Source: a virus | Length of the DNA stretch: 35,473 nt | Reading direction: 5' to 3' (one strand) | Virus record (IMG/VR): IMGVR_UViG_3300036770_006054 | Coordinates: 1-35,473 of that record | Shown here: in pieces, positions 14,493 to 35,473 of the stretch | How positions within the stretch are numbered: position 1 is the first letter of the stretch | Layout: every line of letters starts with the position of its first letter | The notes under the pieces: model-generated | What the model was told of the DNA's origin: nothing | Seen by the model: the letters and a program-made list of their open reading frames with translations, nothing else | Database searches by the model: none | Made by a program: the position numbers and the translations under genes

Positions 14493-14520
14493 TTGACATA
14501 TTTTCTTTTTCGTGTAAAAT
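14493..14520 (+). promoter_or_regulatory. Sigma70-type promoter
   Basis: TTGACA (14493-14498), 16-nt spacer, TAAAAT (14515-14520). Same spacer length as the early promoters after 25 kb. It drives the basic-protein gene at 14584. Confidence 0.75.
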
Positions 14521-14583: not shown

Positions 14584-14970
14584 ATGTTTTTTAACTTATT
14601 TGGTAAGTCTAAAAAATCTAGCTCTACTTCTCACACTACAAAGGAAGAGAAAAACATGTCAAGAACTAGCAACTTCGTAATCTACACGAGAGAGTTCAAA
14701 ACTAGAGCAAAACAAATTGGTGTTTTCGCTGAACCAGCATCTGCTTATATGGTTGATGGTGAAGTTCACGGTGGAAAAATCAAGTTCAAAAACTTGAACG
14801 TGAGAAACACTGCAAGAAAAACAGCTACTAACAAGCTGATTTCTAAAGGCGTTGATTTTAACGTGAATGTTTTGGGAACTGCTCCTAAATCATCTGCTTT
14901 ATCAATCAAAGCTAATGTGATTTCTTTATTAAGAAAATCAGGAAGAAAAGTAATCAACTTTTCTGCATAA
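14584..14970 (+). CDS. Basic, probably highly expressed early protein
   Basis: A 128-residue, strongly basic protein (Lys/Arg/Asn/Thr/Ser-rich) with no membrane segment. Two starts have ribosome-binding sites: the ATG at 14584 (AGAGGA) and an internal one at 14656 (AAGGAAGAG, then MSRTSNFVIYTREFK), the latter giving a 104-residue form; the extra N-terminus is Ser/Lys-rich. A near-consensus promoter, leader hairpin and UUCG-type terminator surround it as a single-gene cassette. This suggests an abundant nucleic-acid-binding protein, but the family is not recognised. Confidence 0.65.
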   Translation: MFFNLFGKSKKSSSTSHTTKEEKNMSRTSNFVIYTREFKTRAKQIGVFAEPASAYMVDGEVHGGKIKFKNLNVRNTARKTATNKLISKGVDFNVNVLGTAPKSSALSIKANVISLLRKSGRKVINFSA

Positions 14971-15388: not shown

Positions 15389-15396
15389 TATTTATC
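15389..15396 (-). promoter_or_regulatory. Late-type promoter box GATAAATA
   Basis: Minus strand GATAAATA, then 8 nt, then ATG at 15380. It overlaps the stop codon of the upstream gene; the transcript would have a leader of at most a few bases. Confidence 0.45.
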
Positions 15397-22544: not shown

Positions 22545-22757
22545 ATGGACATCATCAGTATCGTCACCGGTATCCTAAGTTGGCTACAGGTCAGCATGGG
22601 CCAGGCTTCTGTCACAGCAGGCACAATCTATCAGGGAGCGGTTGTGATTGACAAAGTGACCACAGAGGACTTTCGTGGTACATGGACAGCAGAATTGCAA
22701 GAGCAAGGAAAACAAATCATTCAGGGCTTCGTGGTCAGTGTAAATGAAAAAGAATAA
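22545..22757 (+). CDS. Small hypothetical protein
   Basis: A 70-residue protein with a hydrophobic N-terminus (MDIISIVTGILSWLQVSMGQ) that may be a weak membrane segment or signal, followed by a polar Thr/Gln-rich part. Its 3' end overlaps the radical SAM gene by 14 nt. Unknown function. Confidence 0.5.
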   Translation: MDIISIVTGILSWLQVSMGQASVTAGTIYQGAVVIDKVTTEDFRGTWTAELQEQGKQIIQGFVVSVNEKE

Positions 22758-23886
22758 AATAGAAAATTTCTGTTATAATGCTTTTTTAGGATTAGACATT
22801 TCACCCAGCGGTGATTTAAAACCATGTTGTAAGTATCAAGATAAATCTATACCTAAATTCAATATACTTCAAGGTATCGCCGCCTACAGGGATAGCGAAT
22901 TTTTAAAAGATCTTCAAAATCAATTCTTAAATAATAGTAGGCCTGCAGGTTGTATTCGTTGCTGGCAGGAAGAAGACGCTGGAATAAAGAGCAAAAGGCA
23001 ATTGGATTATGAACGACACAGTGATTCTTTTGACCAGCACGATATTAAAAAAACAGAGTTTAAAAATATTAGTTTAGCATTTGGTAATCTATGTAATCTT
23101 GCTTGTAGAATTTGCGGACCAGGTAGCAGTTCTAAATGGGCATCGGAAATGAAAAAGATGGATGGAAAAGACTATCCTATACATGATTGGTTCCGTGGCC
23201 CAAAAGCCATGTTGGATATAATAGAGAACACTCAACAAGCTATTCATTTTGATATACCAGGAGGAGAGCCATTGTTAGTGGACATACAAGAACATTTTAT
23301 TTTTTTAGAAAATTTAAAAAATAATGGATCTTCTAAAAATATTAGCCTACACTATACAACCAATGGAACTAATTATCCTATAGATAAAAATTTAGAAATA
23401 TGGAAGGCATTTCGAGAAATAGATATACAGATCAGCATAGACGACATCAAAGAAAGATTTGAATATAATAGATGGCCGGCCAAATGGGACACAGTTTATA
23501 AAAACATCAAAAAGTTTCAAAGACTAAAAGATCAAGAGAAGAATATTAAATTGAGCATATCTTTCACAGTCTCGGCCTTCACTATACTATATGCCGATGA
23601 ATTTTATTCTTGGTGTTTATCTGAAGGATTGCCAAAGCCCTGGCTAGGTAGATTACATAATCCATTTCATTATAGGTGTTCTATTTTTCCTACAGATGTT
23701 AAAAACAAAATAAAGAAGAAATTAATGTCTTCAAAATTTTTTGAAATAAGAAAATTATCTAAATATTTAGAACTAGATGACGATAAATATTTTGATGATT
23801 TTAAAAAATGGATTGATCTGTTAGATTCTAAAAGAGATCAAAATTTTTACAGGACATTCTCAGAGCTTTCGGAATTAATATTATGA
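22744..23886 (+). CDS. Radical SAM 'twitch' protein
   Basis: A 380-residue AT-rich gene. The N-terminus holds an auxiliary-cluster segment (Cys10, Cys28-Cys29, Cys70 and Cys73 in AGCIRCWQEE), and CNLACRIC (Cys117, 121, 124) is the SAM-binding 4Fe-4S site, followed by IPGGEPLLV. This N-terminal twitch plus radical SAM order is typical of a group found in marine T4-type phages; substrate unknown. The partial gene at 1-94 is a homologue with the same C-x17-CC spacing. It overlaps genes on both sides. Confidence 0.85.
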   Translation: MKKNKIENFCYNAFLGLDISPSGDLKPCCKYQDKSIPKFNILQGIAAYRDSEFLKDLQNQFLNNSRPAGCIRCWQEEDAGIKSKRQLDYERHSDSFDQHDIKKTEFKNISLAFGNLCNLACRICGPGSSSKWASEMKKMDGKDYPIHDWFRGPKAMLDIIENTQQAIHFDIPGGEPLLVDIQEHFIFLENLKNNGSSKNISLHYTTNGTNYPIDKNLEIWKAFREIDIQISIDDIKERFEYNRWPAKWDTVYKNIKKFQRLKDQEKNIKLSISFTVSAFTILYADEFYSWCLSEGLPKPWLGRLHNPFHYRCSIFPTDVKNKIKKKLMSSKFFEIRKLSKYLELDDDKYFDDFKKWIDLLDSKRDQNFYRTFSELSELIL

Positions 23887-24065
23887 TTAAGAAAAAGAAT
23901 AAGACAGAAAAGGTTTGGTGGACGGGGTTGACCAAAGAGGATATGAACAACATTTCTAACAAGAAGTCTCAAAAGAAGTCTCGAAAGAAAACATCAGAGT
24001 CGTGGAGCAATGAATATTCTGATGTGGACAGATCCGAGAAGATAACTAAAAAATCTAAAAGATAA
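23883..24065 (+). CDS. Small Lys/Ser-rich protein
   Basis: A 60-residue, very basic, probably disordered protein (MIKKKNKTEKVWWTGLTKED...). It overlaps the radical SAM gene by 4 nt (ATGA) and ends 5 nt before the SGNH-like gene, so it belongs to the same unit. Low complexity makes the call less certain. Confidence 0.45.
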   Translation: MIKKKNKTEKVWWTGLTKEDMNNISNKKSQKKSRKKTSESWSNEYSDVDRSEKITKKSKR

Positions 24066-24070
24066 AAAAT

Positions 24071-24844
24071 ATGATTATCGTCACAGGATGTTCTCATTCT
24101 TCTGGGTATGAAATTAATGATCACTTGCTAGGGTTAGATACATTCTCAGAGAAAGACCGTAGGCGGGCCATATGGAAATGGTATAGAAAAAACTACAAAA
24201 AGAAAATTTCTTCTATAGAAGAACTTGACCAGGAGAGCCTCAGAAATTGGCATTTGATAAATGAAAGAAATTACAGCTGGCCTGCATTGTTATCAAAAAA
24301 ACTAAGATTTGAAGTTATAAATTTATCCGTTGTGGGGTCATCTATAGGTCGTAGTATGATTGAATTTTCAAACTACTGTAAGAATAATAGTAGTAAAGAT
24401 AGAAGAATTGCAATTCATCAATTGCCGCAAGTTGGCAGATTTTATATGCGATTTGATTCTAGTAGAATAAATGTTTTGCCAAATAGTGAATTGGAAGACA
24501 TAGGATATAATAAGTTATATTTTGCTGATAAAGTAAAAAAATTAAAAGAGAAATACAAAAAAATAATTTACAAAGATACAAAAAATAATTATATCTTGAA
24601 ACACTATCACCGATGTTTGAAAAGAATTATTAGATTGGGCATTAAAAATAACATTGAAAATTTTTTTATTCTGCCATCTCCCCAAATTTCAGCAGGCGAA
24701 GACATCAAGGTTATTATTGATAATTTTTATAATTTTATGGCTAGATATAAAAAAGGACCAGCAGGTCATGTAATAGATATCAACTTTAATAATGATATAG
24801 TAGATTTAATCATGAAAAAATTAAAAGAAAATAAATTGCTTTAG
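24071..24844 (+). CDS. SGNH/GDSL-like hydrolase-fold protein
   Basis: A 257-residue AT-rich gene. The N-terminus IIVTGCSHSSGYEI (2-15) places Ser8 in the block I position of SGNH hydrolases (GxSH variant), and VINLSVVGSSIGRS supplies a block II-like glycine; ILPSPQIS sits in the later loop. A clear C-terminal catalytic Asp-x-x-His is not visible (VIDINFNND is near the end). The family removes acyl or acetyl groups, often from glycans. Last gene before the promoter-rich early region. Confidence 0.6.
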   Translation: MIIVTGCSHSSGYEINDHLLGLDTFSEKDRRRAIWKWYRKNYKKKISSIEELDQESLRNWHLINERNYSWPALLSKKLRFEVINLSVVGSSIGRSMIEFSNYCKNNSSKDRRIAIHQLPQVGRFYMRFDSSRINVLPNSELEDIGYNKLYFADKVKKLKEKYKKIIYKDTKNNYILKHYHRCLKRIIRLGIKNNIENFFILPSPQISAGEDIKVIIDNFYNFMARYKKGPAGHVIDINFNNDIVDLIMKKLKENKLL

Positions 24845-24961
24845 ATCTAGACATTATTGATAAAAATACAATCAAAAGAAAATAATACATCTCAATAATT
24901 CATTGATTCTATTGACTTATTTCTGATTGACAAATTACCAAACGGTATTAGTATTAGATTT
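24845..24961 (+). promoter_or_regulatory. Early-type promoter 1 and upstream element
   Basis: TTGACA 24927-24932, 16-nt spacer, TAGTAT 24949-24954. The spacer contains TACCAAACGGTA (24936-24947), a TACC-N4-GGTA palindrome. Upstream, CATTGATT...TTGACT (24901-24917) repeats TTGAC 15 nt before the -35. The predicted start is at about the ATG of the next gene (24962). Weakest -10 of the family. Confidence 0.65.
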
Positions 24962-25168
24962 ATGAGAATATCAGTTTTGGTGATAATCATACTTTTAATG
25001 AATGCCTCGACCACACGAGCAGAGATTACAGCTCGTGATGTCTGTATTGGATTGTTGATAGCCAGCAAGGTGATCACAAAGACCCAATCAGGCACTTGGG
25101 GGGCGAGTGTTCATGAAGAAGTTCATCAAGGGGTCAAGGATGCCATACGAAAAGCCGGCGAGAAATAA
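24962..25168 (+). CDS. Small exported protein
   Basis: A 68-residue protein with a typical signal peptide: MRISVLVIIILLMNASTTRA (basic n-region, hydrophobic core, TRA cleavage motif), leaving a 48-residue mature, mildly basic part (EITARDVCIGLLIASKVITK onward). It would act in the periplasm or membrane. Promoter 1 places the transcript start next to the ATG, and no ribosome-binding site is seen. One cysteine in the mature part. Function unknown. Confidence 0.6.
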   Translation: MRISVLVIIILLMNASTTRAEITARDVCIGLLIASKVITKTQSGTWGASVHEEVHQGVKDAIRKAGEK

Positions 25169-25183
25169 GGTTTTTTGAGTAGG

Positions 25184-25211
25184 TTGACATATTACCAAAC
25201 GGTATTATTAT
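25184..25211 (+). promoter_or_regulatory. Early-type promoter 2
   Basis: TTGACA 25184-25189, 16-nt spacer with TACCAAACGGTA (25193-25204), TATTAT 25206-25211. The leader ends in GGGAGG 8 nt before the ATG at 25243. Drives the operon 25243-27116. Confidence 0.85.
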
Positions 25212-25242
25212 AAGAGTTAATTTTAACAGGGAGGTTAATGCT

Positions 25243-25905
25243 ATGCCAAATTGGAATAGTAATGTAGTTGAAGTAAGAGGACCAAATAAAATTGTGAAAG
25301 AGCTTGTGGATCACAAGTTTGATTTCCAAAAGATATATCCATGCCCTGCGGCATTGAATATCACAGCAGGTCGTGAAGGTACTGATGATTCTGTGGAGCA
25401 GAAGGCTTTGGTTGCTAAAGAAGAAGCGAATTTAAAAAAATACGGATACCGCAACTGGTATGACTGGTGTGTGTCAGAATGGGGTACCAAGTGGAACGCA
25501 GGTGGATCTGACAACGAAGACATGATCGTGGACTACGACGAGGATGTAGATGACACGGGCATCGCCCTGTTCACTTTCTCATCAGCATGGGCACCACCCG
25601 TGGGAGTGTTTCAAAAATTAAAAGAACTACACCCAGACCTATACATACAGGGCAGATACTACGAGCCCGGCGTGGGGTTCTTTGGTGTGTGGGACGATGG
25701 TGACGATCGTTGCTATAATTTTGAGAGCATCGAGAAAGGATCCCAAGATGACTTCTGGAAGACGGAGGACGGCATACTATTGGACGAAAACTTTGACATC
25801 GTGGAGGACATGATCCGCAACGAGGAATATGAGATGGATGAAGGTGCCAAGAAGGTCAGAGACTATGTGAAGGGTGAACCGCAGAACTGTGAGGAGACTG
25901 TATAA
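25243..25905 (+). CDS. YubB/Api92-like ferredoxin-fold protein
   Basis: A 220-residue protein. The N-terminus MPNWNSNVVEVRGPNK, the WGTKWNA block and the FSSAWAPPVGVFQKLKELHP block are hallmarks of the YubB (DUF1281-type) ferredoxin-like proteins common in plasmids and phages. The role is not known; it may be an early host-interaction protein. First gene of its operon, with a GGGAGG ribosome-binding site. Its stop overlaps the next ATG by one base. Confidence 0.8.
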   Translation: MPNWNSNVVEVRGPNKIVKELVDHKFDFQKIYPCPAALNITAGREGTDDSVEQKALVAKEEANLKKYGYRNWYDWCVSEWGTKWNAGGSDNEDMIVDYDEDVDDTGIALFTFSSAWAPPVGVFQKLKELHPDLYIQGRYYEPGVGFFGVWDDGDDRCYNFESIEKGSQDDFWKTEDGILLDENFDIVEDMIRNEEYEMDEGAKKVRDYVKGEPQNCEETV

Positions 25906-26453
25906 TGGCAACACGAGCGAGAATAGGCATACAATTACCAGACGGCCAGATCAAGGCCGCATATCAGCATTGGGATGGATACCCAGGTGGACTGGGCTAT
26001 AACCTGATAGACAACTGGACCAACCCTGAAAAAGTTTTGAAAGCGATCCGACTGGGCAACGCCAGCCATTGGGGCATGATAATCGGTGACAAGACCGATT
26101 TCGATGACAGTAAGAACGAGATGCACGACATACAGAATGTCTATTATAGCAGGGACCGCGGAGAGAAGGATCAAGGACCCCGCACCTATGTGGACGAGCA
26201 GGAGTATCTGGCAGAAGGATGGGGTTCGGGCGAGGAGTTCATATACCTCATGAAGGACACAGGACACAAGGATCCATTTGGTGAGACACAGGGTGAATGG
26301 TTCTATGCCACAAGAGTTTGGAACACAGGCGAGAAGGATTATGATCCCGCGGTGGGCTTCCAATCACTGAAGGTGGAGGCCATGAAAGACAAGATCCGTA
26401 TGTTGCAATTTGATCTAAAGAGCATTGAGGACAGCAGAAAGAAGGTGGCATGA
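25905..26453 (+). CDS. Conserved phage protein (HWDGYP family)
   Basis: A 182-residue protein with a compact N-terminal motif series MATRARIGIQLPDGQIKAAY, QHWDGYPGGLG and IRLGNASHWG that recurs in phage early proteins; recalled, not checked. The C-terminal 40 residues are a charged helix. Coupled to the genes on both sides (TAATG before, ATGA after). Ends in KKVA, with the ribosome-binding site of the next gene inside its last codons. Confidence 0.65.
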   Translation: MATRARIGIQLPDGQIKAAYQHWDGYPGGLGYNLIDNWTNPEKVLKAIRLGNASHWGMIIGDKTDFDDSKNEMHDIQNVYYSRDRGEKDQGPRTYVDEQEYLAEGWGSGEEFIYLMKDTGHKDPFGETQGEWFYATRVWNTGEKDYDPAVGFQSLKVEAMKDKIRMLQFDLKSIEDSRKKVA

Positions 26454-26746
26454 GCAAAAAAATCAAATTGAAATTTTTACTGAAGACCGAGCAGGGCGAG
26501 ATGCTGACGAGACAGCAGGTAATAGACAGGCTGTGCCAGTATGACGTGTTTATGCTGATGAGGAACATCAACCTCGAGGACTATGACTGGTTGAGCGACA
26601 CCAGGGAGCATGGCTTCAAGGGCTATCGCAACTATACCGATGAGGAGTTGAAAGAGGAGTGGTTGGAGAGCGAGGCGGGTTGGAGCAACATGATAGCGGA
26701 CGAGGAGCAACCCTACGACATAGCATCTACCATGGAAGTGAAGTGA
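26450..26746 (+). CDS. Small early protein, GFKGYxNYTDEEL family
   Basis: A 98-residue charged protein. The segment DRLCQYDVF (25-33) and GFKGYRNYTDEELKEEWLE (54-72) recur in the smaller protein at 28961-29161 (YLCQKDFEY, GFKGYGNYTDEEL), so the two are paralogues in different early operons. No known function. Confidence 0.65.
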   Translation: MSKKIKLKFLLKTEQGEMLTRQQVIDRLCQYDVFMLMRNINLEDYDWLSDTREHGFKGYRNYTDEELKEEWLESEAGWSNMIADEEQPYDIASTMEVK

Positions 26747-26937
26747 TAAGAAGTTTAGAAAAGATATGGGCTCGTGCCACTGGACACTTGATGGGCCATA
26801 CCGACGATGATCGTCCAGACATACCCATACTGACCTTGCGTGAAGCAAGAATTGCTCTTTTCTTAAAAACATTTTGGGTGATATTACATACTATTACCTG
26901 CCTATTCATAATTGCCAACACCATGAGGCATTGGTAA
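26743..26937 (+). CDS. Small membrane protein, GTG start
   Basis: A 64-residue protein with one C-terminal membrane helix (about residues 40-60, FLKTFWVILHTITCLFIIAN). The GTG start overlaps the previous stop (GTGATAA), and its own stop overlaps the next ATG, so it fits the operon exactly; a longer frame starting at 26659 would lie inside the neighbour. The TDDDRPDIPILTLREARIA block before the helix looks conserved. Probably inner-membrane; unknown function. Confidence 0.65.
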   Translation: MIRSLEKIWARATGHLMGHTDDDRPDIPILTLREARIALFLKTFWVILHTITCLFIIANTMRHW

Positions 26938-27116
26938 TGCGACAATACCACTTCCGATTGAAAGCGGGCAATTTTTCGAATTCATACTTTATAACTGATT
27001 CCAACAGAGACAGAGCTTTTGATTCTGCTCAGTGGGAATTTTTTAAAGACTGTGAAGCTCAAGGGTTCGTGGCCATGAGCTGTCTTTTAGAATTTGAGGA
27101 AGTGAATGAGATATAG
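26937..27116 (+). CDS. Small early protein
   Basis: A 59-residue soluble protein (MRQYHFRLKAGNFSNSYFIT...) starting at the TAATG overlap with the membrane gene. A YHFRLK-type strand followed by a helix (DSAQWEFFKDCEAQGF) resembles the small Y-x-V plus helix early proteins further on. Last gene of operon 2. Unknown function. Confidence 0.55.
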   Translation: MRQYHFRLKAGNFSNSYFITDSNRDRAFDSAQWEFFKDCEAQGFVAMSCLLEFEEVNEI

Positions 27117-27122
27117 GCCGAA

Positions 27123-27181
27123 TAAGTCATTGATTTTATTGACTTAATCGTGGTTGACGTATTACCAAACGGTAGTATTAT
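27123..27181 (+). promoter_or_regulatory. Early-type promoter 3 with upstream inverted repeat
   Basis: TTGACG 27154-27159, 16-nt spacer with TACCAAACGGTA (27163-27174), TATTAT 27176-27181. Upstream TAAGTCA/TGACTTA (27123-27129, 27140-27146) is an inverted repeat and places another TTGACT 15 nt before the -35. Leader with GGGAGG precedes 27215. Drives the operon to 29800. Confidence 0.85.
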
Positions 27182-27214
27182 TAGAGTATAACAAGAACTT
27201 GGGAGGGTTCACAA

Positions 27215-27511
27215 ATGCAAAAACTAAAATTAGTAGACGTACTTAACGACATACTTCACATGGACAATGACGCTCTCAACAGAGTGATTGGTGCCGTGAA
27301 GATGAGGAGAGATCAATTACATTTTACCAATACGAGATCTTTCAAATCCGGCGACAGGGTGGAATTCACTTCCAGCAGAACTGGTAAGGTGTTGGCTGGT
27401 ACGGTTGGCAGGATCAAGATCAAATATGTGGTTGTGGACTGTGACAATGGTCAGAGATGGAACATACCGGGCGGTATGTTGAGACTGGCACAGCAGAAAG
27501 TGACGGCTTAA
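27215..27511 (+). CDS. Conserved small protein with KOW-like beta domain
   Basis: A 98-residue protein. A helical N-terminus (residues 1-35) is followed by GDRVEFTSSRTGKVLAGTVG and RIKIKYVVVDCDNGQRWNIP, the alternating strand-turn pattern of SH3/KOW-like domains, which bind nucleic acid or protein. First gene of operon 3. Ends KVTA and overlaps the next ATG by one base. Confidence 0.65.
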   Translation: MQKLKLVDVLNDILHMDNDALNRVIGAVKMRRDQLHFTNTRSFKSGDRVEFTSSRTGKVLAGTVGRIKIKYVVVDCDNGQRWNIPGGMLRLAQQKVTA

Positions 27512-27864
27512 TGACCAAGACAAAATTATATCCGAGAGCAGAAGACCTGGGCCTAAACGCCTACAGGAAGAGAACCTATTACACCTTGTTGGTGGAGCAG
27601 GATGTATTGGCCAAGGATCAAGATGCGGCCGATGAATTGTTCAGAGATGGCGGTGGCATCAACTATGACAGGATACTGAGAGACCTTACTCTGGAAGACA
27701 AGGGTGTGGAGACCGTGATAGTGGACGCCACATACACCGGAGACACTGGCAACACAGAATATTTAGGCAAAGTGGTATTGAACCCCGACAACGACTACGC
27801 CGCGGAAGATGGCGATGTGGTGTTGGATGCCTATGCAGATGAAACAACCAAGGAGACAGCATGA
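27511..27864 (+). CDS. Small early protein
   Basis: A 117-residue acidic protein. The YYTLLVEQDVLAKDQDAADE segment (strand, then a helix rich in Ala, Asp, Glu) and an acidic C-terminus resemble the DpnD/PcfM-like small proteins. The start at 27511 follows the TAATG overlap; an earlier start would lie inside the neighbour. Ends in KETA with AAGGAG of the next gene inside. Confidence 0.6.
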   Translation: MTKTKLYPRAEDLGLNAYRKRTYYTLLVEQDVLAKDQDAADELFRDGGGINYDRILRDLTLEDKGVETVIVDATYTGDTGNTEYLGKVVLNPDNDYAAEDGDVVLDAYADETTKETA

Positions 27865-28091
27865 AGAAACATATAGCACCCGAAGGAGCAGAGTTCAAGT
27901 ACAGAGTCACTAGGATCAGCACGGGCTCGATCACAGAAGTGGCCTACATAACTGCCACCAGCGAGGACGAAGCAGAAGAGAAATTATCTCGTGATGAGCT
28001 GGACAGCGATTTTGAGATAGTATCGGATGATATGAGTGTGGAAGAAGAGACGATCCGTAGATGCAACAGCGAAGAGAAGGAGCACGCCTAA
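27861..28091 (+). CDS. Small early acidic protein, DpnD/PcfM-like
   Basis: A 76-residue acidic protein. FKYRVTRISTGSITEVAYIT followed by ATSEDEAEEKLSRDEL is a strand-strand-helix pattern typical of the DpnD/PcfM-like domain, also seen in the neighbours 28091-28336 and 33229-33711. Overlaps its neighbours by 4 and 1 nt. No known activity. Confidence 0.6.
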   Translation: MKKHIAPEGAEFKYRVTRISTGSITEVAYITATSEDEAEEKLSRDELDSDFEIVSDDMSVEEETIRRCNSEEKEHA

Positions 28092-28336
28092 TGAGTCATT
28101 TGGATGATAAGCAACAGTTGATAGACATTATCAAAGGCGAGGAGAAGATATACAGCCAGATGATCTATACCATGGGTTTCCAAAGATTGGTCAAGGCCAC
28201 ATCTAAGGAAGAGGCCATCAGCAAGTTCCAGAACGATCATATAGACGTGATCGCTGACGACGAGAATGTGGACTGTGATGATCACAGCGAAGTGGTTGAG
28301 ACAGATATGGAGGTCACAGAGCTGTATGGCGAATAG
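28091..28336 (+). CDS. Small early acidic protein, DpnD/PcfM-like
   Basis: An 81-residue acidic protein. YSQMIYTMGFQRLVKATSKE and EEAISKFQNDHIDVIADDE mirror the preceding protein (strand, ATSxEEA helix, acidic end), so the two are tandem paralogues. The start at 28091 is in the TAATG overlap. No known function. Confidence 0.6.
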   Translation: MSHLDDKQQLIDIIKGEEKIYSQMIYTMGFQRLVKATSKEEAISKFQNDHIDVIADDENVDCDDHSEVVETDMEVTELYGE

Positions 28337-28514
28337 AGATTTCCAAGTGGGCGATATTGTGAACAACTTCAACACGGGCATCCGTGGCGAGATTCTGGAC
28401 ATAGATTGGGGTACCAATGAAGCAACCATCCGAGACCTAGATTCAGAATATGAGCACCCAGAGGATCAGTTGATCTATAGGGTGTGGGACTTAACATTAT
28501 ACTCAAGGGGGTAG
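28326..28514 (+). CDS. Small early protein, KOW/SH3-like
   Basis: A 62-residue protein (MANRDFQVGDIVNNFNTGIR, then GEILDIDWGTNEATIRDLD). The GDIV...GxxGxIxxI pattern suggests a small beta-barrel like that in 27215-27511. It overlaps the previous gene by 11 nt. Confidence 0.55.
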   Translation: MANRDFQVGDIVNNFNTGIRGEILDIDWGTNEATIRDLDSEYEHPEDQLIYRVWDLTLYSRG

Positions 28515-28515
28515 T

Positions 28516-28656
28516 ATGACAAAGAAAGAAGAGAATCAATTGGCGGCTCTATTAAAGCAACTGTATGGCCGGGATTGGCAGTTCACTTGGAAGAGTGAGG
28601 ATTCGGGTTTCAGTTTAAAATTAGAAGTGGAAAAAACCGCGAAGGAGACAGCATGA
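28516..28656 (+). CDS. Very small early protein (46 residues)
   Basis: MTKKEENQLAALLKQLYGRD, then WQFTWKSEDSGFSLKLEVEK and KTAKETA-type end. A helix followed by two strands. It starts 1 nt after the previous stop and overlaps the next start by 4 nt, filling a gap that would otherwise be empty. Its last codons carry AAGGAG, the next gene's ribosome-binding site. Confidence 0.6.
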   Translation: MTKKEENQLAALLKQLYGRDWQFTWKSEDSGFSLKLEVEKTAKETA

Positions 28657-28964
28657 CAAGAATACTATTTGACATGAGTCGTTTAAAGAGAGAATTCACT
28701 CGAGAGAACCTACAGGCGTGGGCAGAGTTCTTGGCAGAATGCAATAGAGCGAACTTCTATTACAAATCCGATGGTTGGAGTCAGGGTGAATTGGTGGACT
28801 TTGATGATACAGGATTCGCTGAGATAGAATTAAAATGGGGTGATGATCAGAACGATCACGAGCAATACTCAGACCTAGTGGAGTATGACCGGGAGAAATT
28901 CTATTACGAATTTGATAAGATGAAGGAAAAACTAATGACTAACCCAGAGGAGATAGTAGGATGA
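28653..28964 (+). CDS. Small early protein
   Basis: A 103-residue acidic protein with many aromatics (FLAECNRANFYYKSDGWSQG and WGDDQNDHEQYSDLVEYDRE). No known motif. AAGGAG lies 5 nt before the ATG inside the previous gene. Overlaps the next gene by 4 nt. Confidence 0.55.
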   Translation: MTRILFDMSRLKREFTRENLQAWAEFLAECNRANFYYKSDGWSQGELVDFDDTGFAEIELKWGDDQNDHEQYSDLVEYDREKFYYEFDKMKEKLMTNPEEIVG

Positions 28965-29161
28965 AGAAGATGGGCAGAGAAGAGGCTATACAGTACCTAT
29001 GCCAGAAGGACTTTGAATATATCAATTCCAGTGATGGTGCTGGACTAGAGTTATTAGACAGCATATTGGCAGATGGATTCAAAGGTTATGGCAATTACAC
29101 TGATGAAGAACTGAACTCAGCTGTGATGGAGAGAAAAGAAATGGAGAAAATGGGTATATGA
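28961..29161 (+). CDS. Small early protein, GFKGYxNYTDEEL family
   Basis: A 66-residue protein sharing YLCQKDF and GFKGYGNYTDEEL with the 98-residue protein at 26450-26746. This is a shortened paralogue in the next operon. Unknown function. Confidence 0.65.
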   Translation: MKKMGREEAIQYLCQKDFEYINSSDGAGLELLDSILADGFKGYGNYTDEELNSAVMERKEMEKMGI

Positions 29162-29454
29162 AAAAGAAAATAATAGGACAAGTGGGTGTGGATTCAGGAT
29201 CCATATTGATATCGGATCCCAGTTATATCAACGATCACTTCAGCATTGAAGGTGATGACATCTATGACATCTATCCAGACAAGGACAGATATCGTCAGAT
29301 CAGTACCAAGAAGACCAAGAACACAATCAAGATACCGATTGCGATGACACTACAAACAGGTTGGGGTGATGGAGTGTATCCAGTCACAGCTCACTACAAC
29401 AAGGATGGCAGGATCGCCAAGGTGGAGATAGTGTTTGATGAATACTTTGAATAA
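29158..29454 (+). CDS. Conserved small protein (IGQVGVDSG family)
   Basis: A 98-residue protein whose start KIIGQVGVDSGSILISDPSY and TGWGDGVYPVTAHYNKDGRI stretch resemble a small family found in phages and bacteria that begins IGxVGVDSG; the name and function are not known to me. Coupled to the preceding gene by a 4-nt overlap. Confidence 0.65.
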   Translation: MKKKIIGQVGVDSGSILISDPSYINDHFSIEGDDIYDIYPDKDRYRQISTKKTKNTIKIPIAMTLQTGWGDGVYPVTAHYNKDGRIAKVEIVFDEYFE

Positions 29455-29476
29455 CAACAACCAAAAGGGAGAAGCA

Positions 29477-29800
29477 ATGACGACAACAGCAACGACAACG
29501 ACAACCAAGAAGGTGGTGAGAAAGTTCCACACGGACCCCGGACACGGCTGGATCTGTGTAAAGATAGCAGAGTTAGAAGCTCTGGGCATCGCGGACAAGA
29601 TCACTGAATACTCTTATATGAGGAAACAGTCGGCCTACTTGGAGGAAGATACTGACTATACGACTTACCTTAATGCTCTCAAGGAGAGAGGCATCGAGTT
29701 AGAGACTGTGGATGGCAAGGTCTTTGACAAGCCACATCCTATCAGAAGATTTGAACCATATCAGTATGGGTCAACGGCACCATTGAAAAAAGTGGCATAA
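29477..29800 (+). CDS. Conserved small protein with poly-Thr start
   Basis: A 107-residue protein. The start at 29477 has GGGAG 5 nt upstream; residues 2-10 are nearly all threonine. VRKFHTDPGHGWICVKIAEL is a compact block that looks like a small domain (HTDPGHGW) seen in other phage and bacterial small proteins. It ends in KKVA, and the operon ends here in a strong terminator. Confidence 0.65.
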   Translation: MTTTATTTTTKKVVRKFHTDPGHGWICVKIAELEALGIADKITEYSYMRKQSAYLEEDTDYTTYLNALKERGIELETVDGKVFDKPHPIRRFEPYQYGSTAPLKKVA

Positions 29801-29806
29801 TACTTT

Positions 29807-30451
29807 TTAATACTTGGGTCTAGAAATAGGCCCAAGTAATTTTTTTTCTGCCCATTTCGTTTTCATTTTTTCAGAATATTTTTTTTTGCGTTCAGGGTTC
29901 CATCGTTCTTTATTAATTTTTAATTGTTTTTTTCTGTATTCAGGATCCTGCCATAATTTTTTACTTATTTCTGACAGTTTTTTCCTATATAAAGGATCTT
30001 CCATTTTCTTTTTGTATTCAAAAGTTTTCCAAAGCTCTTGACTAATTTCTGATCGTTTTTTTCTGCGTTCGGGATCTTGCCATATTTTTTTAAGAGTTTC
30101 CGATTGTTTTTTTCTAGTTTCGAGAGACCTTTTTTTACTTAAACCTTTCATTATTTTCTTTAATTTTTCTTTTACTTCTTTGCTATGGAAATATGGTTCA
30201 CTTCTAGTTTTACGGTTTAATAAAATTCCTGTACCAAGATCTTTACGACCAAATTTTAAAATTAAATTTTCTTCAATATCACAGGCTATCAAATTGGTTA
30301 AATTTTCATACAATTTTTTAATTTTTTCATTACTTGGAACTTCTATATTATGATGTTTAACGAAACATCTATTGCCTTTGCCTTTGCCAATATAGTAGGG
30401 TTGGCCTTGCTCATCATAGTAGGCATAGACATAATGCTCTTTTAAATACAC
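29807..30451 (-). CDS. GIY-YIG homing endonuclease with NUMOD3-like repeats
   Basis: A 214-residue protein. HYVYAYYDEQGQPYYIGKGK (residues 6-25) is a GIY-YIG nuclease domain start (YVY...YIG) with the catalytic Arg after GKGKGN. The rest is a chain of short Lys-rich DNA-binding repeats (IWQDPERRKKRSE-type, about five copies) like NUMOD3. The start GTG at 30451 is chosen because GGAG lies 8 nt before it; GTG 30460 is too close. AT-rich, opposite in strand to all neighbours, so a mobile insertion. Its last 11 codons overlap the terminator stem of the preceding operon. Confidence 0.9.
   Translation of the reverse strand: MYLKEHYVYAYYDEQGQPYYIGKGKGNRCFVKHHNIEVPSNEKIKKLYENLTNLIACDIEENLILKFGRKDLGTGILLNRKTRSEPYFHSKEVKEKLKKIMKGLSKKRSLETRKKQSETLKKIWQDPERRKKRSEISQELWKTFEYKKKMEDPLYRKKLSEISKKLWQDPEYRKKQLKINKERWNPERKKKYSEKMKTKWAEKKLLGPISRPKY
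29811..29847 (+). terminator. Strong rho-independent terminator (GAAA loop)
   Basis: A 12-bp stem with one G-U pair (TACTTGGGTCTA with TAGGCCCAAGTA) and a GAAA tetraloop, then eight T. It ends operon 3. On the other strand it lies within the last codons of the homing endonuclease. Confidence 0.95.
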
Positions 30452-30549
30452 AGCTGGCACTCCTTTTCAGTGTTAGGGCCTATGGATACTCTAATATCGC
30501 GATAGGCGTTTAATCTATAATTATTTATCCAAATAAACCATTGATTTTG

Positions 30550-30592
30550 TTGACTTTTTAGTGATTGACCTAATACAGGTCCATGTTATACT
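30550..30592 (+). promoter_or_regulatory. Early-type promoter 4
   Basis: TTGACC 30565-30570, 16-nt spacer, TATACT 30587-30592. A second TTGACT lies 15 nt upstream (30550), and CATTGATTTTGTTGACTT is shared with promoters 1 and 3. The spacer palindrome is not conserved here. Leader ends in GGGAGG before 30626. Confidence 0.85.
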
Positions 30593-30625
30593 GATAGTAT
30601 AAACAATTTTAACTGGGAGGTTTAA

Positions 30626-30892
30626 ATGTTTGCAGATAAGACAAAGATACACCAAGAATTAAAAACAAGATTTAGAAATGAATCTGATCTAACTGTCTCT
30701 ATGATGACGAGAGCAATATCAGATTTAGATATATCCAATCCAGCGGCTTTGGATGTGATGTACGAAGATGTGATGTTCTTCACGGGTGACTGGCCAGAAT
30801 CAGAAGGTTGGGGTTCATCTGACACAGCGGCTTTGATTCAATCAGTTAAGGCGACATTAATCAGCAACGGCTACCTAAAGGAGGCGGCATAA
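30626..30892 (+). CDS. Small early protein
   Basis: An 88-residue protein, helical at the start, with ESEGWGSSDTAALIQSV later. First gene of operon 4 with a GGGAGG ribosome-binding site. Ends KEAA, where AAGGAGG serves the next gene. No known function. Confidence 0.6.
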   Translation: MFADKTKIHQELKTRFRNESDLTVSMMTRAISDLDISNPAALDVMYEDVMFFTGDWPESEGWGSSDTAALIQSVKATLISNGYLKEAA

Positions 30893-31137
30893 TGACATAC
30901 CAAACAGGATACACGGAAAAGGTATTAATGGAGCAATTCATGGGTGCCTACATCGATCATAACCACATTGTGAGATGGAGAAGCAACGACCAGATACCGT
31001 TCCAGGATATGCTGGCTGACTTCAGAGCATTGGGGTTGATAGATGAGGATGCCCAATTGGGTTCTTCTCTATTAAGGGAGAAAGAGGACGAGGAGTTCTG
31101 GGCGACACACGACATTACCAAGCCGGGGGAGAAATAA
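30892..31137 (+). CDS. Small early protein
   Basis: An 81-residue acidic protein (MTYQTGYTEKVLMEQFMGAY...; ending THDITKPGEK). Start shares one base with the previous stop (TAATG) and its stop with the next ATG. No motif recognised. Confidence 0.6.
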   Translation: MTYQTGYTEKVLMEQFMGAYIDHNHIVRWRSNDQIPFQDMLADFRALGLIDEDAQLGSSLLREKEDEEFWATHDITKPGEK

Positions 31138-31559
31138 TGAGATACATCACAGTAGAGAATGACAATGACTTTCAACACACCAATCAGGCAAGGAATACCA
31201 AACAGGCTCTGGGCTTCTACATCGATGCCGTGGAGAGAAGTGAGCGAGACAGGGAGACCTATCCCAAGATATTTGGTGATGCTGGATTGTTGGAGCGAGT
31301 GGAGTTGGTCAAGGAGAGAATCAAGAATTTTTTCAACAAGACCGATGACGAGATGTATGTGACCTGCCGATACAATCGAGGCAACGCATTCATATCGGTC
31401 AAGCCGGACTCCAGCTTGTTCAGCAAGAGATCCAGAACAGAAAAATATGAGCTATTATTGAATCCAATCAGATCATTGGGTGGATACATCCAGGAGAAGA
31501 ACACTTCTTCGGGGTGGTTCGTGAGAGTGTATTATAAAAACCAACAGGAGGCAAAATGA
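31137..31559 (+). CDS. Early protein, unknown
   Basis: A 140-residue basic-neutral protein. A helical first half (residues 15-70) precedes a beta-rich second half (MYVTCRYNRGNAFISVKP). The stop overlaps the next ATG by 4 nt. Unknown function. Confidence 0.6.
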   Translation: MRYITVENDNDFQHTNQARNTKQALGFYIDAVERSERDRETYPKIFGDAGLLERVELVKERIKNFFNKTDDEMYVTCRYNRGNAFISVKPDSSLFSKRSRTEKYELLLNPIRSLGGYIQEKNTSSGWFVRVYYKNQQEAK

Positions 31560-31735
31560 CGATACAAGTACCCAACAACAGCCTATGGCAGTACATCGAG
31601 AAGGATCACATAGACTCTTCAATCAAGAAGACCATATGGGAGGAGTTCGTGATGAGCCATCAAGAGGAGTTCGCTGAAAAAGTGAGCGAGTTGGCTGAGG
31701 AGATGTGGAGTAATTATAACCAAGGAGCAGAATAA
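31556..31735 (+). CDS. Small early protein (59 residues)
   Basis: MTIQVPNNSLWQYIEKDHID then a long acidic helix ending NYNQGAE. It starts in the ATGA overlap with the previous gene and ends in the TAATG overlap with the next, filling a 175-nt gap. AGGAGG lies 9 nt before the ATG. Unknown function. Confidence 0.6.
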   Translation: MTIQVPNNSLWQYIEKDHIDSSIKKTIWEEFVMSHQEEFAEKVSELAEEMWSNYNQGAE

Positions 31736-31956
31736 TGATAGACGATAGACTGAGCGACCAAAGAGACGAGTTCTTCGCAGATATTCAAGCAGGAGACCTT
31801 GTGTTCTTACAGGCAGACGATGGCAGTGAAATAGCCGGCATAGCTGTGGAGAGATCGTGGGTGGGTTGGATCGTGGAAGGTGGTGTAGAGGTGACGGAAT
31901 ATGAAAATTACCTGGGACACATCAGCCGAAACCAATTGACCGGAGTGGCGGCATGA
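31735..31956 (+). CDS. Small early protein, SH3-like
   Basis: A 73-residue acidic protein. IQAGDLVFLQADDGSEIAGI and RSWVGWIVEGGVEV read as a small beta-barrel, like the KOW-type proteins of operon 3. Ends GVAA; the same 16-nt junction (CGGAGTGGCGGCATGA) recurs at 34069. Confidence 0.6.
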   Translation: MIDDRLSDQRDEFFADIQAGDLVFLQADDGSEIAGIAVERSWVGWIVEGGVEVTEYENYLGHISRNQLTGVAA

Positions 31957-32186
31957 TCAGCAAAATCAAATCAAAGTATTCAGAGAAGACCTATCAAAGC
32001 ACCACGGGCAAGATTAGACCAGTGAACGGTTGGAAGGTGTGGGTGAATGGTGTCAAATACCCAGACGAGAGAACCTATGTATATTCACAGCCCAACACAG
32101 AAGAAGGCAAGCATCATGCGGAGGTCATGGCACTCAATGATGCCCTGCATAAGATATCGAAAGGAAAATATAAATGGAAAAAATAA
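31953..32186 (+). CDS. Small basic early protein
   Basis: A 77-residue protein with a basic C-terminus (HKISKGKYKWKK). A WKVWVNGVKYPDERTYVYSQ strand pair is followed by a helix (HAEVMALNDALHKI). Overlaps the next gene by 13 nt. Unknown function. Confidence 0.55.
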   Translation: MISKIKSKYSEKTYQSTTGKIRPVNGWKVWVNGVKYPDERTYVYSQPNTEEGKHHAEVMALNDALHKISKGKYKWKK

Positions 32187-32416
32187 AGACCAAATCATCA
32201 GCACCACGATTGCCGTTTGATTGTGTGGTGGGCACAGATTTTGAAGATATCAAGAATCCTTTCTCAGGAGAGACTGTGACCTGTCCGCCCGACTTTGTGG
32301 CTGTGTATGACACTATCAAAGGAGCGGAGCTCATGGGTGAGTATGAACACATGGACAAGGGGTTGGATTGGGCAAGACAATACTATCCTGAACTTTATAT
32401 GAAGTTATTGGATTAG
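32174..32416 (+). CDS. Small early protein
   Basis: An 80-residue acidic protein (PFDCVVGTDFEDIKNPFSGE, later FVAVYDTIKGAELMGEYEHM). Stop is directly followed by the next ATG. Unknown function. Confidence 0.55.
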   Translation: MEKIKTKSSAPRLPFDCVVGTDFEDIKNPFSGETVTCPPDFVAVYDTIKGAELMGEYEHMDKGLDWARQYYPELYMKLLD

Positions 32417-32653
32417 ATGAGAAGAAAGAAAACCTACATCCATGTCAATCAGCACGTCATTCGATCCAACAAGAAGAATGACGCCAGCGATCCCGTGATC
32501 ACAGTGAAGAAGGGCACGAAAAATACCTATTGCTCCAGAGTGAGGATATTGGGGCCAAGCGAAGTGATCTATGGTGGCAACGACCGAGCTCTATTGAGCT
32601 GTGGTGCCCGAGTGGTGATTGCCACAGAAGCAGAAGTGGAGATAGTGGAATGA
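32417..32653 (+). CDS. Small basic early protein
   Basis: A 78-residue beta-type protein with a basic N-terminus (MRRKKTYIHVNQHVIRSNKK) and alternating hydrophobic strands later. Possibly nucleic-acid binding. Last gene of operon 4. Confidence 0.55.
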   Translation: MRRKKTYIHVNQHVIRSNKKNDASDPVITVKKGTKNTYCSRVRILGPSEVIYGGNDRALLSCGARVVIATEAEVEIVE

Positions 32654-32680
32654 GCCAAGCAACATGGCATTTTTAGTAGG

Positions 32681-32708
32681 TTGACCCATTACCAAACCAT
32701 GCTATACT
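32681..32708 (+). promoter_or_regulatory. Early-type promoter 5
   Basis: TTGACC 32681-32686, 16-nt spacer, TATACT 32703-32708. The spacer keeps ATTACCAAAC but the second palindrome arm is lost (CATG instead of GGTA). Leader with GGGAGG before 32740. Confidence 0.85.
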
Positions 32709-32739
32709 GATACTATAAACATTTAATTGGGAGGTTAAA

Positions 32740-33120
32740 ATGATAACACAAGATACAAAAGAACTATTAAAATTCAATGCTCATGGAGTGAGCCCAGCAG
32801 ATATCTATAAGGAAGCCTGTGAAGCGGCCTGCAAGGCTGTGGACACTTTCTATGCTCAGCACGGTGAGCCCATGTATTGTGGATTTGGAGATGTGAAGAT
32901 CACTCCGGCTAGAGGCACATTGGTAAAATATTTGAAAGACATCAAGATTGGTAGCAATGGCTGGAATGGTGGTTGGAGGATCAGCTCATATGACATCATG
33001 AGAGGACACCAGTTATGCCACACTCAATCAATGAGCATCAAAGAAGAAGCCTGCGATGCCTTTGCAAAGGTATTAGAAAAATATGGCATGACAGCCTACT
33101 CACAATCTAGAGCGGACTAA
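32740..33120 (+). CDS. Early protein, unknown
   Basis: A 126-residue protein with four cysteines (27, 31, 47, 93). Helical N-terminus (IYKEACEAACKAVDTFYAQH), a Gly/Trp-rich middle (GSNGWNGGWRISSYD) and a C-terminal helix. First gene of operon 5. No known family. Confidence 0.6.
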   Translation: MITQDTKELLKFNAHGVSPADIYKEACEAACKAVDTFYAQHGEPMYCGFGDVKITPARGTLVKYLKDIKIGSNGWNGGWRISSYDIMRGHQLCHTQSMSIKEEACDAFAKVLEKYGMTAYSQSRAD

Positions 33121-33236
33121 TGAAGAACAACATAATCAAACTGGCATCAAAGAGAACTGGCAAGAACAAAACCTTGCCAGCAACCTCGATGACTACTAGG
33201 ATAACAGCTATTAGAAAGAAGGTACATCATGTCTAG
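33120..33236 (+). CDS. Possible 38-residue basic protein over a hairpin
   Basis: MKNNIIKLASKRTGKNKTLP, then ATSMTTRITAIRKKVHHV. It starts in a TAATG overlap and overlaps the next gene by 8 nt. The same bases contain a perfect 8-bp hairpin (CTGGCAAG/CTTGCCAG, 33157-33180), so the stretch may be a regulatory RNA element instead of, or as well as, a gene. Confidence 0.35.
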   Translation: MKNNIIKLASKRTGKNKTLPATSMTTRITAIRKKVHHV

Positions 33237-33711
33237 AATTTATTATTATCAAATACTTTATAAAAAAACAAATGAACTAGGGTCTGACACGACTTATATT
33301 AAAGCCCAAAGTATTAGTGAAGCAGAATCTAAATGTGGAATACCTAAAGAAGACATCAGAGGCATTTTTAATTTGAAATGGGATCAACAGCACGAATATC
33401 ATACATTTAAAGAAAAGAACAGAAAAAGAATATATTACAAAGTGAAGAAGATGGATGAGCTGGAAAGGTTCGTCTTACCACCAGACATACAGAGCTGGAT
33501 CTTGCGATACGATGCGGGTTCAGAACAGGCCCTGGTCAAGCAGGTGCCATTGACACCGGACAATATATCAATGATAGATCGTTTGGCTGGCATGATGCCA
33601 ATCACTCGCAGGTATCGAGGACCCCGACATAATTCTAGAAACTTCACTAGAGATTGTCCCAAGAAGGATGCGGAACGAGTTTCAATTTACTTAAAAGAAA
33701 GGGTGGCATAG
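33229..33711 (+). CDS. Early protein with DpnD/PcfM-like N-terminal half
   Basis: A 160-residue basic protein. Residues 1-55 (YYYQILYKKTNELGSDTTYI, then KAQSISEAESKC) show the strand-strand-helix pattern seen at 27861 and 28091; the C-terminal half (LPPDIQSWILRYDAGSEQAL, later RRYRGPRHNSRNFTRDC) is different and basic. The first 190 bases are clearly more AT-rich than neighbours, suggesting a fusion or transfer. Ends ERVA. Confidence 0.55.
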   Translation: MSRIYYYQILYKKTNELGSDTTYIKAQSISEAESKCGIPKEDIRGIFNLKWDQQHEYHTFKEKNRKRIYYKVKKMDELERFVLPPDIQSWILRYDAGSEQALVKQVPLTPDNISMIDRLAGMMPITRRYRGPRHNSRNFTRDCPKKDAERVSIYLKERVA

Positions 33712-34080
33712 ATGGCGTACTGGCAGAAATTAAATTATTCAGAAAATAAGTTTCAACCATTCCATATAAAATTGGATTACTGTGACGAGGAGATCTCTCT
33801 CAGAGACATATACAAGTTCGATGATGATCAGGAGTGGATCGACCGGACCGCACAGGAGATCATAGATGGATACAAGTATTTCGTTATCCTGAGAGCCAAG
33901 GTATATCTAGCAGGAGTAGAGTTGGCATCACACAGTCTGGGTGGCCTATTGTTTGACAACACAGATGAGATGGAGAGCATGATGAGATTGGATTATGAGG
34001 GCATCATAGCGGAGGCCGTGGACAAAGCCAAACATAATTTGAAACAGATGAGTGAGGCCATGAGCGGAGTGGCGGCATGA
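33712..34080 (+). CDS. Early acidic protein, unknown
   Basis: A 122-residue acidic protein (MAYWQKLNYSENKFQPFHIK...), beta-rich at first, then helical. It starts immediately after the previous stop and ends GVAA, with the ribosome-binding site of the next gene in its last codons. Unknown function. Confidence 0.6.
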   Translation: MAYWQKLNYSENKFQPFHIKLDYCDEEISLRDIYKFDDDQEWIDRTAQEIIDGYKYFVILRAKVYLAGVELASHSLGGLLFDNTDEMESMMRLDYEGIIAEAVDKAKHNLKQMSEAMSGVAA

Positions 34081-34286
34081 CCGATATAGATAATTTTGCT
34101 CTATTGAATGATCTTAAGGAGTTGTTAAGACAGCTGGATATCGGAGACACAGAACAAGTGAGGACAGAATTACAAGACATCATTGATCGAGTCCAAGCGG
34201 ATTGTGATGAGAAGCACAGGATCTACCTAGAGCGAGTGGAGAGATACATAGGTCATGTGGATTCGGCTCTCAAGGATAGAAAATAA
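34077..34286 (+). CDS. Small helical early protein
   Basis: A 69-residue helical protein, coiled-coil-like (LNDLKELLRQLDIGDTEQVR, later LERVERYIGHVDSALKDRK). ATGA overlap with the previous gene. Last gene of operon 5. Unknown function. Confidence 0.55.
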   Translation: MTDIDNFALLNDLKELLRQLDIGDTEQVRTELQDIIDRVQADCDEKHRIYLERVERYIGHVDSALKDRK

Positions 34287-34313
34287 CTGGCATAAAACAT
34301 AGATTTTTTAAAA

Positions 34314-34362
34314 GATACAAGATCCAGTATCACTCAACAGCAATAATACTAGATGTTGTATC
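34314..34362 (+). promoter_or_regulatory. Long imperfect hairpin between operons 5 and 6
   Basis: Seventeen-base arms pair at 15 positions around a 15-nt loop (outer GATACAA with TTGTATC, inner AGTAT with ATACT). There is no T-run, so it is not a typical terminator. It lies 20 nt upstream of promoter 6. Could be a transcript 3' end, an operator or an RNA processing site. Confidence 0.6.
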
Positions 34363-34382
34363 GTTTGGCAAGATCACCGAGG

Positions 34383-34409
34383 TTGACGCTAATACAGCCG
34401 TGTTATAAT
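34383..34409 (+). promoter_or_regulatory. Early-type promoter 6
   Basis: TTGACG 34383-34388, 15-nt spacer, TATAAT 34404-34409. The following leader (GATAGTATAAACAATTTTAA then CTGGGAGG) is nearly the same as that of promoter 4. Drives 34445 and the endolysin gene. Confidence 0.85.
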
Positions 34410-34444
34410 GATAGTATAAACAATTTTAACTGGGAGGTTTAAAA

Positions 34445-34873
34445 ATGTTAAAGAAGAAGATAGATAACAATAGCAAGTCAGGCATGATGGTGGGCTACAT
34501 CCATCAGTCAGGCGACATCACTGCCATAGAGCCGGGTTGGAACATGACTCCGCTGGTGTTGGCGAAATTATTAAAAGACCTATATCCAAACAAACAGGAG
34601 GCCATTGAGTTGGTTGACTCCGCTGTGTTGGTACCCGTGTTCAGAAAAGAAGACTACGAGTATGTGGATGGTTTTGGTGGTGTGCTGGAATCCAATATCA
34701 ATTTTTATGAAGAGAATGTTAGAACCCATGTGGGACATCTATTCCTATTCATGAAAGGTGCTTGGCAATATTCCAACAACGGCACCGACTGGGATCCAAT
34801 CTCAGAAGTGTTCATTGACGGCAGTGGCATCAAATTCTCCGAAGTGAGACAGGCCGTGGAGGCGGCGGCCTAG
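34445..34873 (+). CDS. Early protein, unknown
   Basis: A 142-residue protein with N-terminal strands (MVGYIHQSGDITAIEPGWNM), a helix and a C-terminal EAAA. Strong leader with GGGAGG. It directly precedes the endolysin gene, so it may belong to the lysis module, but it has no membrane segment. Unknown function. Confidence 0.6.
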   Translation: MLKKKIDNNSKSGMMVGYIHQSGDITAIEPGWNMTPLVLAKLLKDLYPNKQEAIELVDSAVLVPVFRKEDYEYVDGFGGVLESNINFYEENVRTHVGHLFLFMKGAWQYSNNGTDWDPISEVFIDGSGIKFSEVRQAVEAAA

Positions 34874-35455
34874 ATGGTGAGCATGGATTCAATCACTAGA
34901 GTGGCTTTTGAATTGTTGGTGGCACTCAACATCGGCTATTCAGAGGACCTACATCGCAAGCCATTCAACAACGACGAGTTATTTTGTCTGGCTAAAAACA
35001 TTTATTTTGAAGCTCGTGCTGAATCCATGCAGGGCAAGATTGCTGTGGCATCAGTGGTCAAGAACAGGATCAAAGATCCCAAGTTTCCCAAGACCTATTG
35101 TGATGTGATCAAAGAAGGACGACACAGCGAAAGCTGGAAGACGAAAGGTGTGGCAGGAGTTGAAGATAAGGACAGGATATTTGTACCTAAAAAAAATCAA
35201 TGTCAATTTTCATGGTACTGTGATGGATTGAAAGACATCATATGGATACAACTGAAAGACGGCACTCCTATCGAACATAACAAGACTTCGTGGAGGGACT
35301 CTGTGAATGTGGCACTGATGGTGATGAGTGGACAGGCTCGAGACAACACAGGCGGAGCCACTTATTATTATGCCCACAATCAGGTTTATCCGGATTGGGC
35401 GGACAAATTTACCAAAGTAGACGTCATTGGTAATCATACATTTATGAAGAGATGA
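34874..35455 (+). CDS. SleB/CwlJ-type cell-wall hydrolase (endolysin)
   Basis: A 193-residue protein of the Hydrolase_2 (SleB) family. FCLAKNIYFEARAESMQGKI (37-56) holds the catalytic-type Glu46, followed by VASVVKNRIKDPKFPKTYCD and CQFSWYCDG, and a final ATYYYAH block. The family cleaves the glycan strands of peptidoglycan, typically as a lytic transglycosylase. There is no signal peptide, so export needs a holin. Stop of the preceding gene is directly before the ATG; it sits in the sixth early-promoter operon, which is unusual for a lysis gene. Confidence 0.85.
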   Translation: MVSMDSITRVAFELLVALNIGYSEDLHRKPFNNDELFCLAKNIYFEARAESMQGKIAVASVVKNRIKDPKFPKTYCDVIKEGRHSESWKTKGVAGVEDKDRIFVPKKNQCQFSWYCDGLKDIIWIQLKDGTPIEHNKTSWRDSVNVALMVMSGQARDNTGGATYYYAHNQVYPDWADKFTKVDVIGNHTFMKR

Positions 35456-35473
35456 TCATAGACTTTTTTGTGA
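35452..35473 (+). CDS. Start of a further gene (partial)
   Basis: ATGATCATAGAC... begins in an ATGA overlap with the endolysin stop and runs to the edge (MIIDFFV). Too short to identify; accepted because this overlap style is universal in the region. Confidence 0.35.

Follow-up and report, generated by a model that had tools for sequence, protein, structure and literature searches.

T4-like phages (T4, RB49, RB43, RB69, Aeh1 and 44RR) each possess a family of similar early promoters with a consensus of its own, and these host-sigma70 promoters precede conserved early genes as well as operons of novel open reading frames (ORFs) (Nolan et al. 2006, PMC1524935). Marine T4-likes have been reported to be without identifiable middle promoters (PMC9004378). 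Here we describe the early promoters of a fragment of a marine T4-like phage, IMG/VR virus record IMGVR_UViG_3300036770_006054, which was analysed over its whole length of 35,473 bases (the window). Six operons between 24.9 and 34.4 kb are headed by promoters of the form TTGAC-N16/17-TAKWMT, and three of these carry an operator-like palindrome, TACC-N4-GGTA, in the spacer between -35 and -10. Families of early promoters in T4-likes are already known; the palindromic spacer is the less ordinary part.

The window was placed among the T4-likes by the product of a minus-strand gene at 6918-8135 (phrog_455), which matched 466 phage records, nearly all of them T4-like cyanophages and marine myoviruses, with Pelagibacter phage HTVC008M (Kyanoviridae) as the best match at 40% identity. 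The right third of the window, 24.9-35.4 kb, consists of small plus-strand ORFs in series, mostly without known function, and is a run of the kind seen in T4-like early regions.

A preliminary description of this DNA had proposed six near-identical early promoters with spacers of 15-16 nucleotides (nt). All the elements it named were found, and a scan of the window with TTGAC-N16/17-TAKWMT yielded 7 matches against 0.47 expected from shuffles, a number that none of 100 shuffles reached; the matches were the six promoters and one more at 13982. Counted from the full hexamer to the -10, five promoters have a spacer of 16 nt, and the length of 15 nt applies only to the promoter at 34383. The six promoters fall into two classes. 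Class A (promoters 1-3) reads TTGACR-(A/T)ATTACCAAACGGTA(T/G)-TANTAT and is palindromic without a TG, while class B (promoters 4-6) has an extended -10, TGNTATAMT (TATACT or TATAAT), and a non-palindromic spacer. The G of the class B TG takes the same spacer position as the last A of GGTA in class A; thus palindrome and extended -10 are mutually exclusive in this register. Two further promoters lie outside the range of the six: TTGACA-N16-TATAAT at 13982-14009 precedes a DUF1178 gene, and TTGACA-N16-TAAAAT at 14493-14520, found by eye, precedes an ORF at 14584-14970.

The presence of TACCAAACGGTA in three of the six spacers was confirmed, each time at the same place (see the table). TACC-N4-GGTA occupies spacer positions 4-15, and this two-fold symmetric site overlaps the RNA polymerase contacts. 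It occurs 4 times in the window with 0.11 occurrences expected; the fourth copy, at 27465, lies inside a coding sequence. A fourth promoter keeps the left half only, at 32689, as had been described. Because the three window palindromes are copies of one block, the palindrome was counted as one event.

Three close relatives carry the same loci on three contigs, with DNA identities to the window of ~80% (L440/L125), ~76-79% (L438/L108) and 90% (L439/L124), and have palindromic promoters at orthologous places. Across 10 promoters of these four phages there is 100% identity at spacer positions 3-15, compared with spacers that are only 36-67% identical among themselves within class B, G001 and two sister families. 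Identity in four phages and at three loci, against free variation in the sister promoters, argues that something reads the sequence. The palindrome showed zero changes in 72 compared positions, for which the naive probability of ~10^-7.6 is loose since the copies are related. Homogenisation of short tracts would not by itself explain this well, as the flanks differ between the three orthologous loci. The earlier proposal is thus borne out in part: a regulator site common to part of the early region is supported by this invariance. G001 is a 114.8-kb T4-like contig with a phrog_455 homologue at 38% identity and promoters of the same build; two of them have TACC-ATAT-GGTA in the same register, the arms being kept and the loop changed.

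We consider it just short of an even chance that a dimeric protein reads the class A spacer, which would then most likely be a repressor operator gating three operons. Judged from their sequences, the six promoters would be sigma-70-type early promoters recognized by the host RNA polymerase through the -35 TTGAC, the 16-nt spacer and a -10 of TANTAT or TGNTATAMT, each predicted to drive an operon of small early genes. The entire spacer of the first three promoters is fixed as (A/T)ATTACCAAACGGTA; a dimeric DNA-binding protein would read it, and a bound repressor would exclude RNA polymerase, so that the three class A operons would be gated or shut off together. The downstream promoters with the extended -10 would escape the repressor and the two classes would differ in timing. 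Unlikely as a whole is the more specific picture of a virulent T4-like phage with one spacer operator over three early operons, a phage or host repressor outside the HTH_3, TetR, MerR and RHH models, and a repressible and a non-repressible early set.

Promoters of similar layout occur elsewhere. In IMG/VR, TTGAC..TACC-N4-GGTA..TATAAT was found in 95 stretches versus 8 for TAGG-N4-CCTA, a control of the same composition; clustered by context, these reduce to 28 and 6 contexts, respectively. The palindromic promoter precedes XRE/HTH_3-like genes in 7 of the 28 viral contexts; with gaps 5-6 the figure is 3 of 33, and in the control it is 1 of 6. This link is suggestive only. Of 41 context clusters in which palindromic TTGACA/TATAAT promoters occur on bacterial contigs of GTDB (L311-L428), 10 have TetR-family genes behind the promoter; among these 10 are the two largest clusters, of 39 and 12 loci, and another of 8 loci, and TetR_N was verified by Pfam in six proteins downstream of such promoters. 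TACC-N4-GGTA before TetR genes is a recurrent and apparently autoregulatory layout. The placement in front of TetR and XRE genes, in cellular genomes and temperate phages, thus suggests that repressors elsewhere use this layout. A literature text search for the palindrome sequence gave no match. The notion of one universal phage operator was rejected in view of the few contexts left after clustering and the lack of an N4 preference.

Several observations weigh against an operator in the window. The preliminary description had envisaged a phage or host regulator at the site, and searches for HTH_3, TetR_N, MerR_1 and RHH_1 proteins turned up none in the window, in its three close relatives and in G001, which are all fragments. 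The loop AAAC, which is not symmetric, varies no more than the arms do; an additional copy at L439:18603 reads TTACCAAACGATA, with one base of an arm lost; and in the small sample of G001 promoters the arms do not covary, as 2 have both arms, 2 the left alone, 1 the right alone and 2 have neither. Random 16-nt spacers hold some 4+4 dyad (gap 0-8) ~15% of the time, and one with gap 4 ~2-3%. Among the matches listed, the IMG/VR context clusters numbered 12 for N5, 18 for N6 and 14 for N4; N5 and N6 are about as common as N4, so a single operator of precisely this form is not in wide use. The palindrome is restricted to a small clade and the two G001 promoters. Ten further loci encoding relatives of an early gene (L443-L452) mostly show promoter families of their own with 16-nt spacers and an extended -10; the palindromic form was neither among the promoters found there nor in five of those records searched whole, and TTACC without GGTA is common in the sister families (7 of 13 in L443/L445/L446). 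Of the 80 loci checked that encode relatives of ORF 25243, the gene behind promoter 2, none with a distant homologue had the palindrome upstream, and HTVC008M has no exact TTGAC-N4-TACC-N4-GGTA. The site is thus conserved beyond the promoter boxes in the four close phages and absent from sister families and distant orthologues, and other relatives keep -35 and -10 without it. The absence of the palindrome from relatives, which the preliminary description would have taken as a refutation, therefore holds for the more distant relatives and not for the close ones. It is the fixed loop, the lack of arm covariation and the restriction to one clade that bring the operator claim below even odds. A tie of the palindrome to the ORF 25243 gene family was likewise considered and rejected; among the 80 loci the palindromic promoter recurs only in the close relative L463.

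We give a substantial chance, if clearly under a half, to the explanation that there is no regulator and that the palindrome is incidental. One cassette would have been amplified in which TTACC is old and GGTA arose when the TG of the extended -10 was replaced in one lineage, and the block would be conserved since it sets promoter strength, or the copies would be recent. TTACC without GGTA in the sister families and in window promoter 5, the coincidence of the GGTA end with the TG position, the arms of G001 and the frequency of dyads in random spacers all agree with this, and cassette copying is visible: blastn gave promoter-block matches of ~65-77 nt between non-orthologous promoters, and the L438:5903 promoter carries an upstream block that its orthologues are without. 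On the other hand, exact reading of as many as 13 spacer bases is not known for polymerase, sister promoters vary freely there, and the identity between phages holds at three separate loci with diverged flanks. The TTACC motifs also bear on the graded loss of the site suggested in the preliminary description. The polarity is unproven and, since TTACC in the sister families never has the right half, GGTA may with at least equal likelihood have been gained in one clade.

A MerR-type activator had been named as well. On this reading the true -10 would be TATAAG/TATAAT at a distance of 19 nt from the -35, and the over-long spacer would be untwisted by a dimer of the MerR family bound at the central palindrome. 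Most class A and G001 promoters do have a TATAA-like hexamer at this distance, and a spacer of 19 nt would have the palindrome at its centre. Yet the 16-nt register is common to class B and the sister-phage promoters, the G001 promoters L435:19006 and L436:11800 have a single good -10 (TATAAT at 16, none at 19), and at 19 nt window promoter 3, like some others, offers no more than TATTAG. Furthermore, in promoter 1 and its L438, L440 and G001 counterparts an ATG lies 6-7 nt past the 16-spaced -10 and 3-4 nt past the 19-spaced one, so that with the latter transcripts would start past the conserved ATG. For these reasons we favoured the 16-nt register and rejected the 19-nt spacing. MerR operators usually have longer arms, and MerR_1 was not found in G000-G010 (fragments). 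Only a very slight chance is left to MerR-type activation.

With the 16-nt register the ATG after promoter 1 sits at the expected transcription start, and thus this first gene is probably read from a leaderless message. The start codon of its ORF of 68 amino acids is kept in L438 and L440 and is supported by an N-terminus, MRIS../MKIS.., that resembles a signal-peptide start; the ORF itself had no Pfam or PHROG match. Genes with an ATG 6-7 nt past the -10 recur right after palindromic promoters (24962-25168 in the window, L436:7441 and 15746, L128, L171), and those in L436, L128 and L171 probably have leaderless messages, too. The ORFs at 22545-22757 and 24962-25168, both small with a hydrophobic start and a similar C-terminal pattern (GTWxA...Q...), are possibly paralogous.

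Class A could also represent another temporal class, served by a phage-modified RNA polymerase or a co-activator analogous to MotA/AsiA with the fixed spacer as the activator site, which we deem improbable. The -10 of class A is weaker and not extended as in class B, and marine T4-likes are without recognisable MotA-type middle promoters, divergent ones having been suggested (PMC9004378). However, class A keeps the consensus -35, where T4 middle promoters have a MotA box instead (PMC1524935), and the analysis brought up no candidate activator.

The extra TTGACT that the preliminary description placed exactly 15 nt before the -35 is present at 24912, 27139 and 30550. It is not conserved, being absent from L438 and L440:19853. 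The block GTCATTGATT..TTGACTT was copied along with some promoters, and some copies constitute a hairpin, AAGTCA-N10-TGACTT. Folding of the upstream 50 nt gave ~-10 kcal/mol in window promoter 3, L440:17607 and L439:18603 and only ~-2 in window promoters 1 and 4. A function of the second TTGACT as a tandem -35 was rejected, as no -10 lies at a suitable distance and the element is not conserved; it is more likely a remnant of an upstream terminator or a plain component of the cassette than a promoter. The leader GATAGTATAAACAATTTTAACTGGGAGG is indeed repeated after the promoters at 30565 and 34383, as had been reported.

Table. Promoters and associated elements in the right third of the window
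Feature	Position	Strand	Sequence and setting	Orthologues
Upstream block	24901..24919	+	CATTGATT..TTGACTT; precedes promoter 1, with further copies ahead of promoters 3 and 4; belongs to copied cassette	
Class A promoter 1	24927..24954	+	TTGACA-N16-TAGTAT; spacer AATTACCAAACGGTAT; first-gene ATG 7 nt past -10	L440:17607, L438:5465, L439:18603 (GGTA to GATA in L439:18603)
Palindrome, promoter 1 spacer	24936..24947	none	TACC-AAAC-GGTA	
ORF, 68 amino acids	24962..25168	+	signal-peptide-like N-terminus (MRISVLVIIILLMNASTTRA); start codon at predicted transcription start	
Class A promoter 2	25184..25211	+	TTGACA-N16-TATTAT; then GGGAGG and ORF 25243-25905	L440:17864, L439:18862, L438:5903
Palindrome, promoter 2 spacer	25193..25204	none	TACC-AAAC-GGTA	
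Class A promoter 3	27154..27181	+	TTGACG-N16-TATTAT; then GGGAGG and ORF 27215-27511	L440:19853, L438:6860
Palindrome, promoter 3 spacer	27163..27174	none	TACC-AAAC-GGTA	
Class B promoter 4	30565..30592	+	TTGACC-N16-TATACT; extended -10 (TGT); without palindrome	
Copied leader	30593..30620	+	GATAGTATAAACAATTTTAACTGGGAGG; second copy after promoter 6	
Class B promoter 5	32681..32708	+	TTGACC-N16-TATACT; extended -10 (TGC); left half ATTACCAAAC kept, CATGC in place of right half	
Class B promoter 6	34383..34409	+	TTGACG-N15-TATAAT; extended -10 (TGT); without palindrome	

Between two of the early operons sits a minus-strand ORF at 29807-30460 that is homing-endonuclease-like (phrog_314, E 4e-7) and probably a mobile insertion. 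No Rfam elements were found within 24000-35473. The left part of the window contains UDP-glucose dehydrogenase-like and radical-SAM genes (15392-16606, 20260-21135, 22744-23886) as auxiliary metabolic genes. The ORF at 14020-14463 encodes a DUF1178 (PF06676) protein with E 7e-39; DUF1178 is known as a family in cellular bacteria, and the phage-borne gene may serve as a pointer to the host group.

Being fixed and operator-like in part of the early promoters, the spacer provides a testable candidate for the timing of early genes. Alternatively, it is a candidate site through which the host or a different phage would act on early transcription. Should the palindrome turn out to be incidental, the locus would nevertheless illustrate clearly how promoter cassettes are copied within phage genomes.

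Compared with known systems, the window and the L443-L449 and G001 families resemble T4-like early regions by many similar sigma-70-type promoters before small-ORF operons. They differ in that the -35 is GTTTAC in T4 and TTGAC in the window, and in the window subset with a fixed palindromic spacer, an operator-like element of which the early-promoter passages of PMC1524935 make no mention. MerR-type promoters likewise have a palindrome between -35 and -10, but with a spacer of 19-20 nt versus 16 nt in the window, and no MerR gene was found. XRE/Cro-like phage promoters have the same palindrome inside the spacer, yet this spacer is 17 nt, the promoters drive the helix-turn-helix gene itself, and no HTH_3 gene was found in the window or G001. 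In the apparently autoregulated TetR promoters of bacteria the spacer is mostly 17 nt and the regulated gene is the presumed repressor, while no TetR_N gene was found in the phages examined; but the arms, the gap and the position within a TTGACA/TATAAT promoter are the same as in class A.

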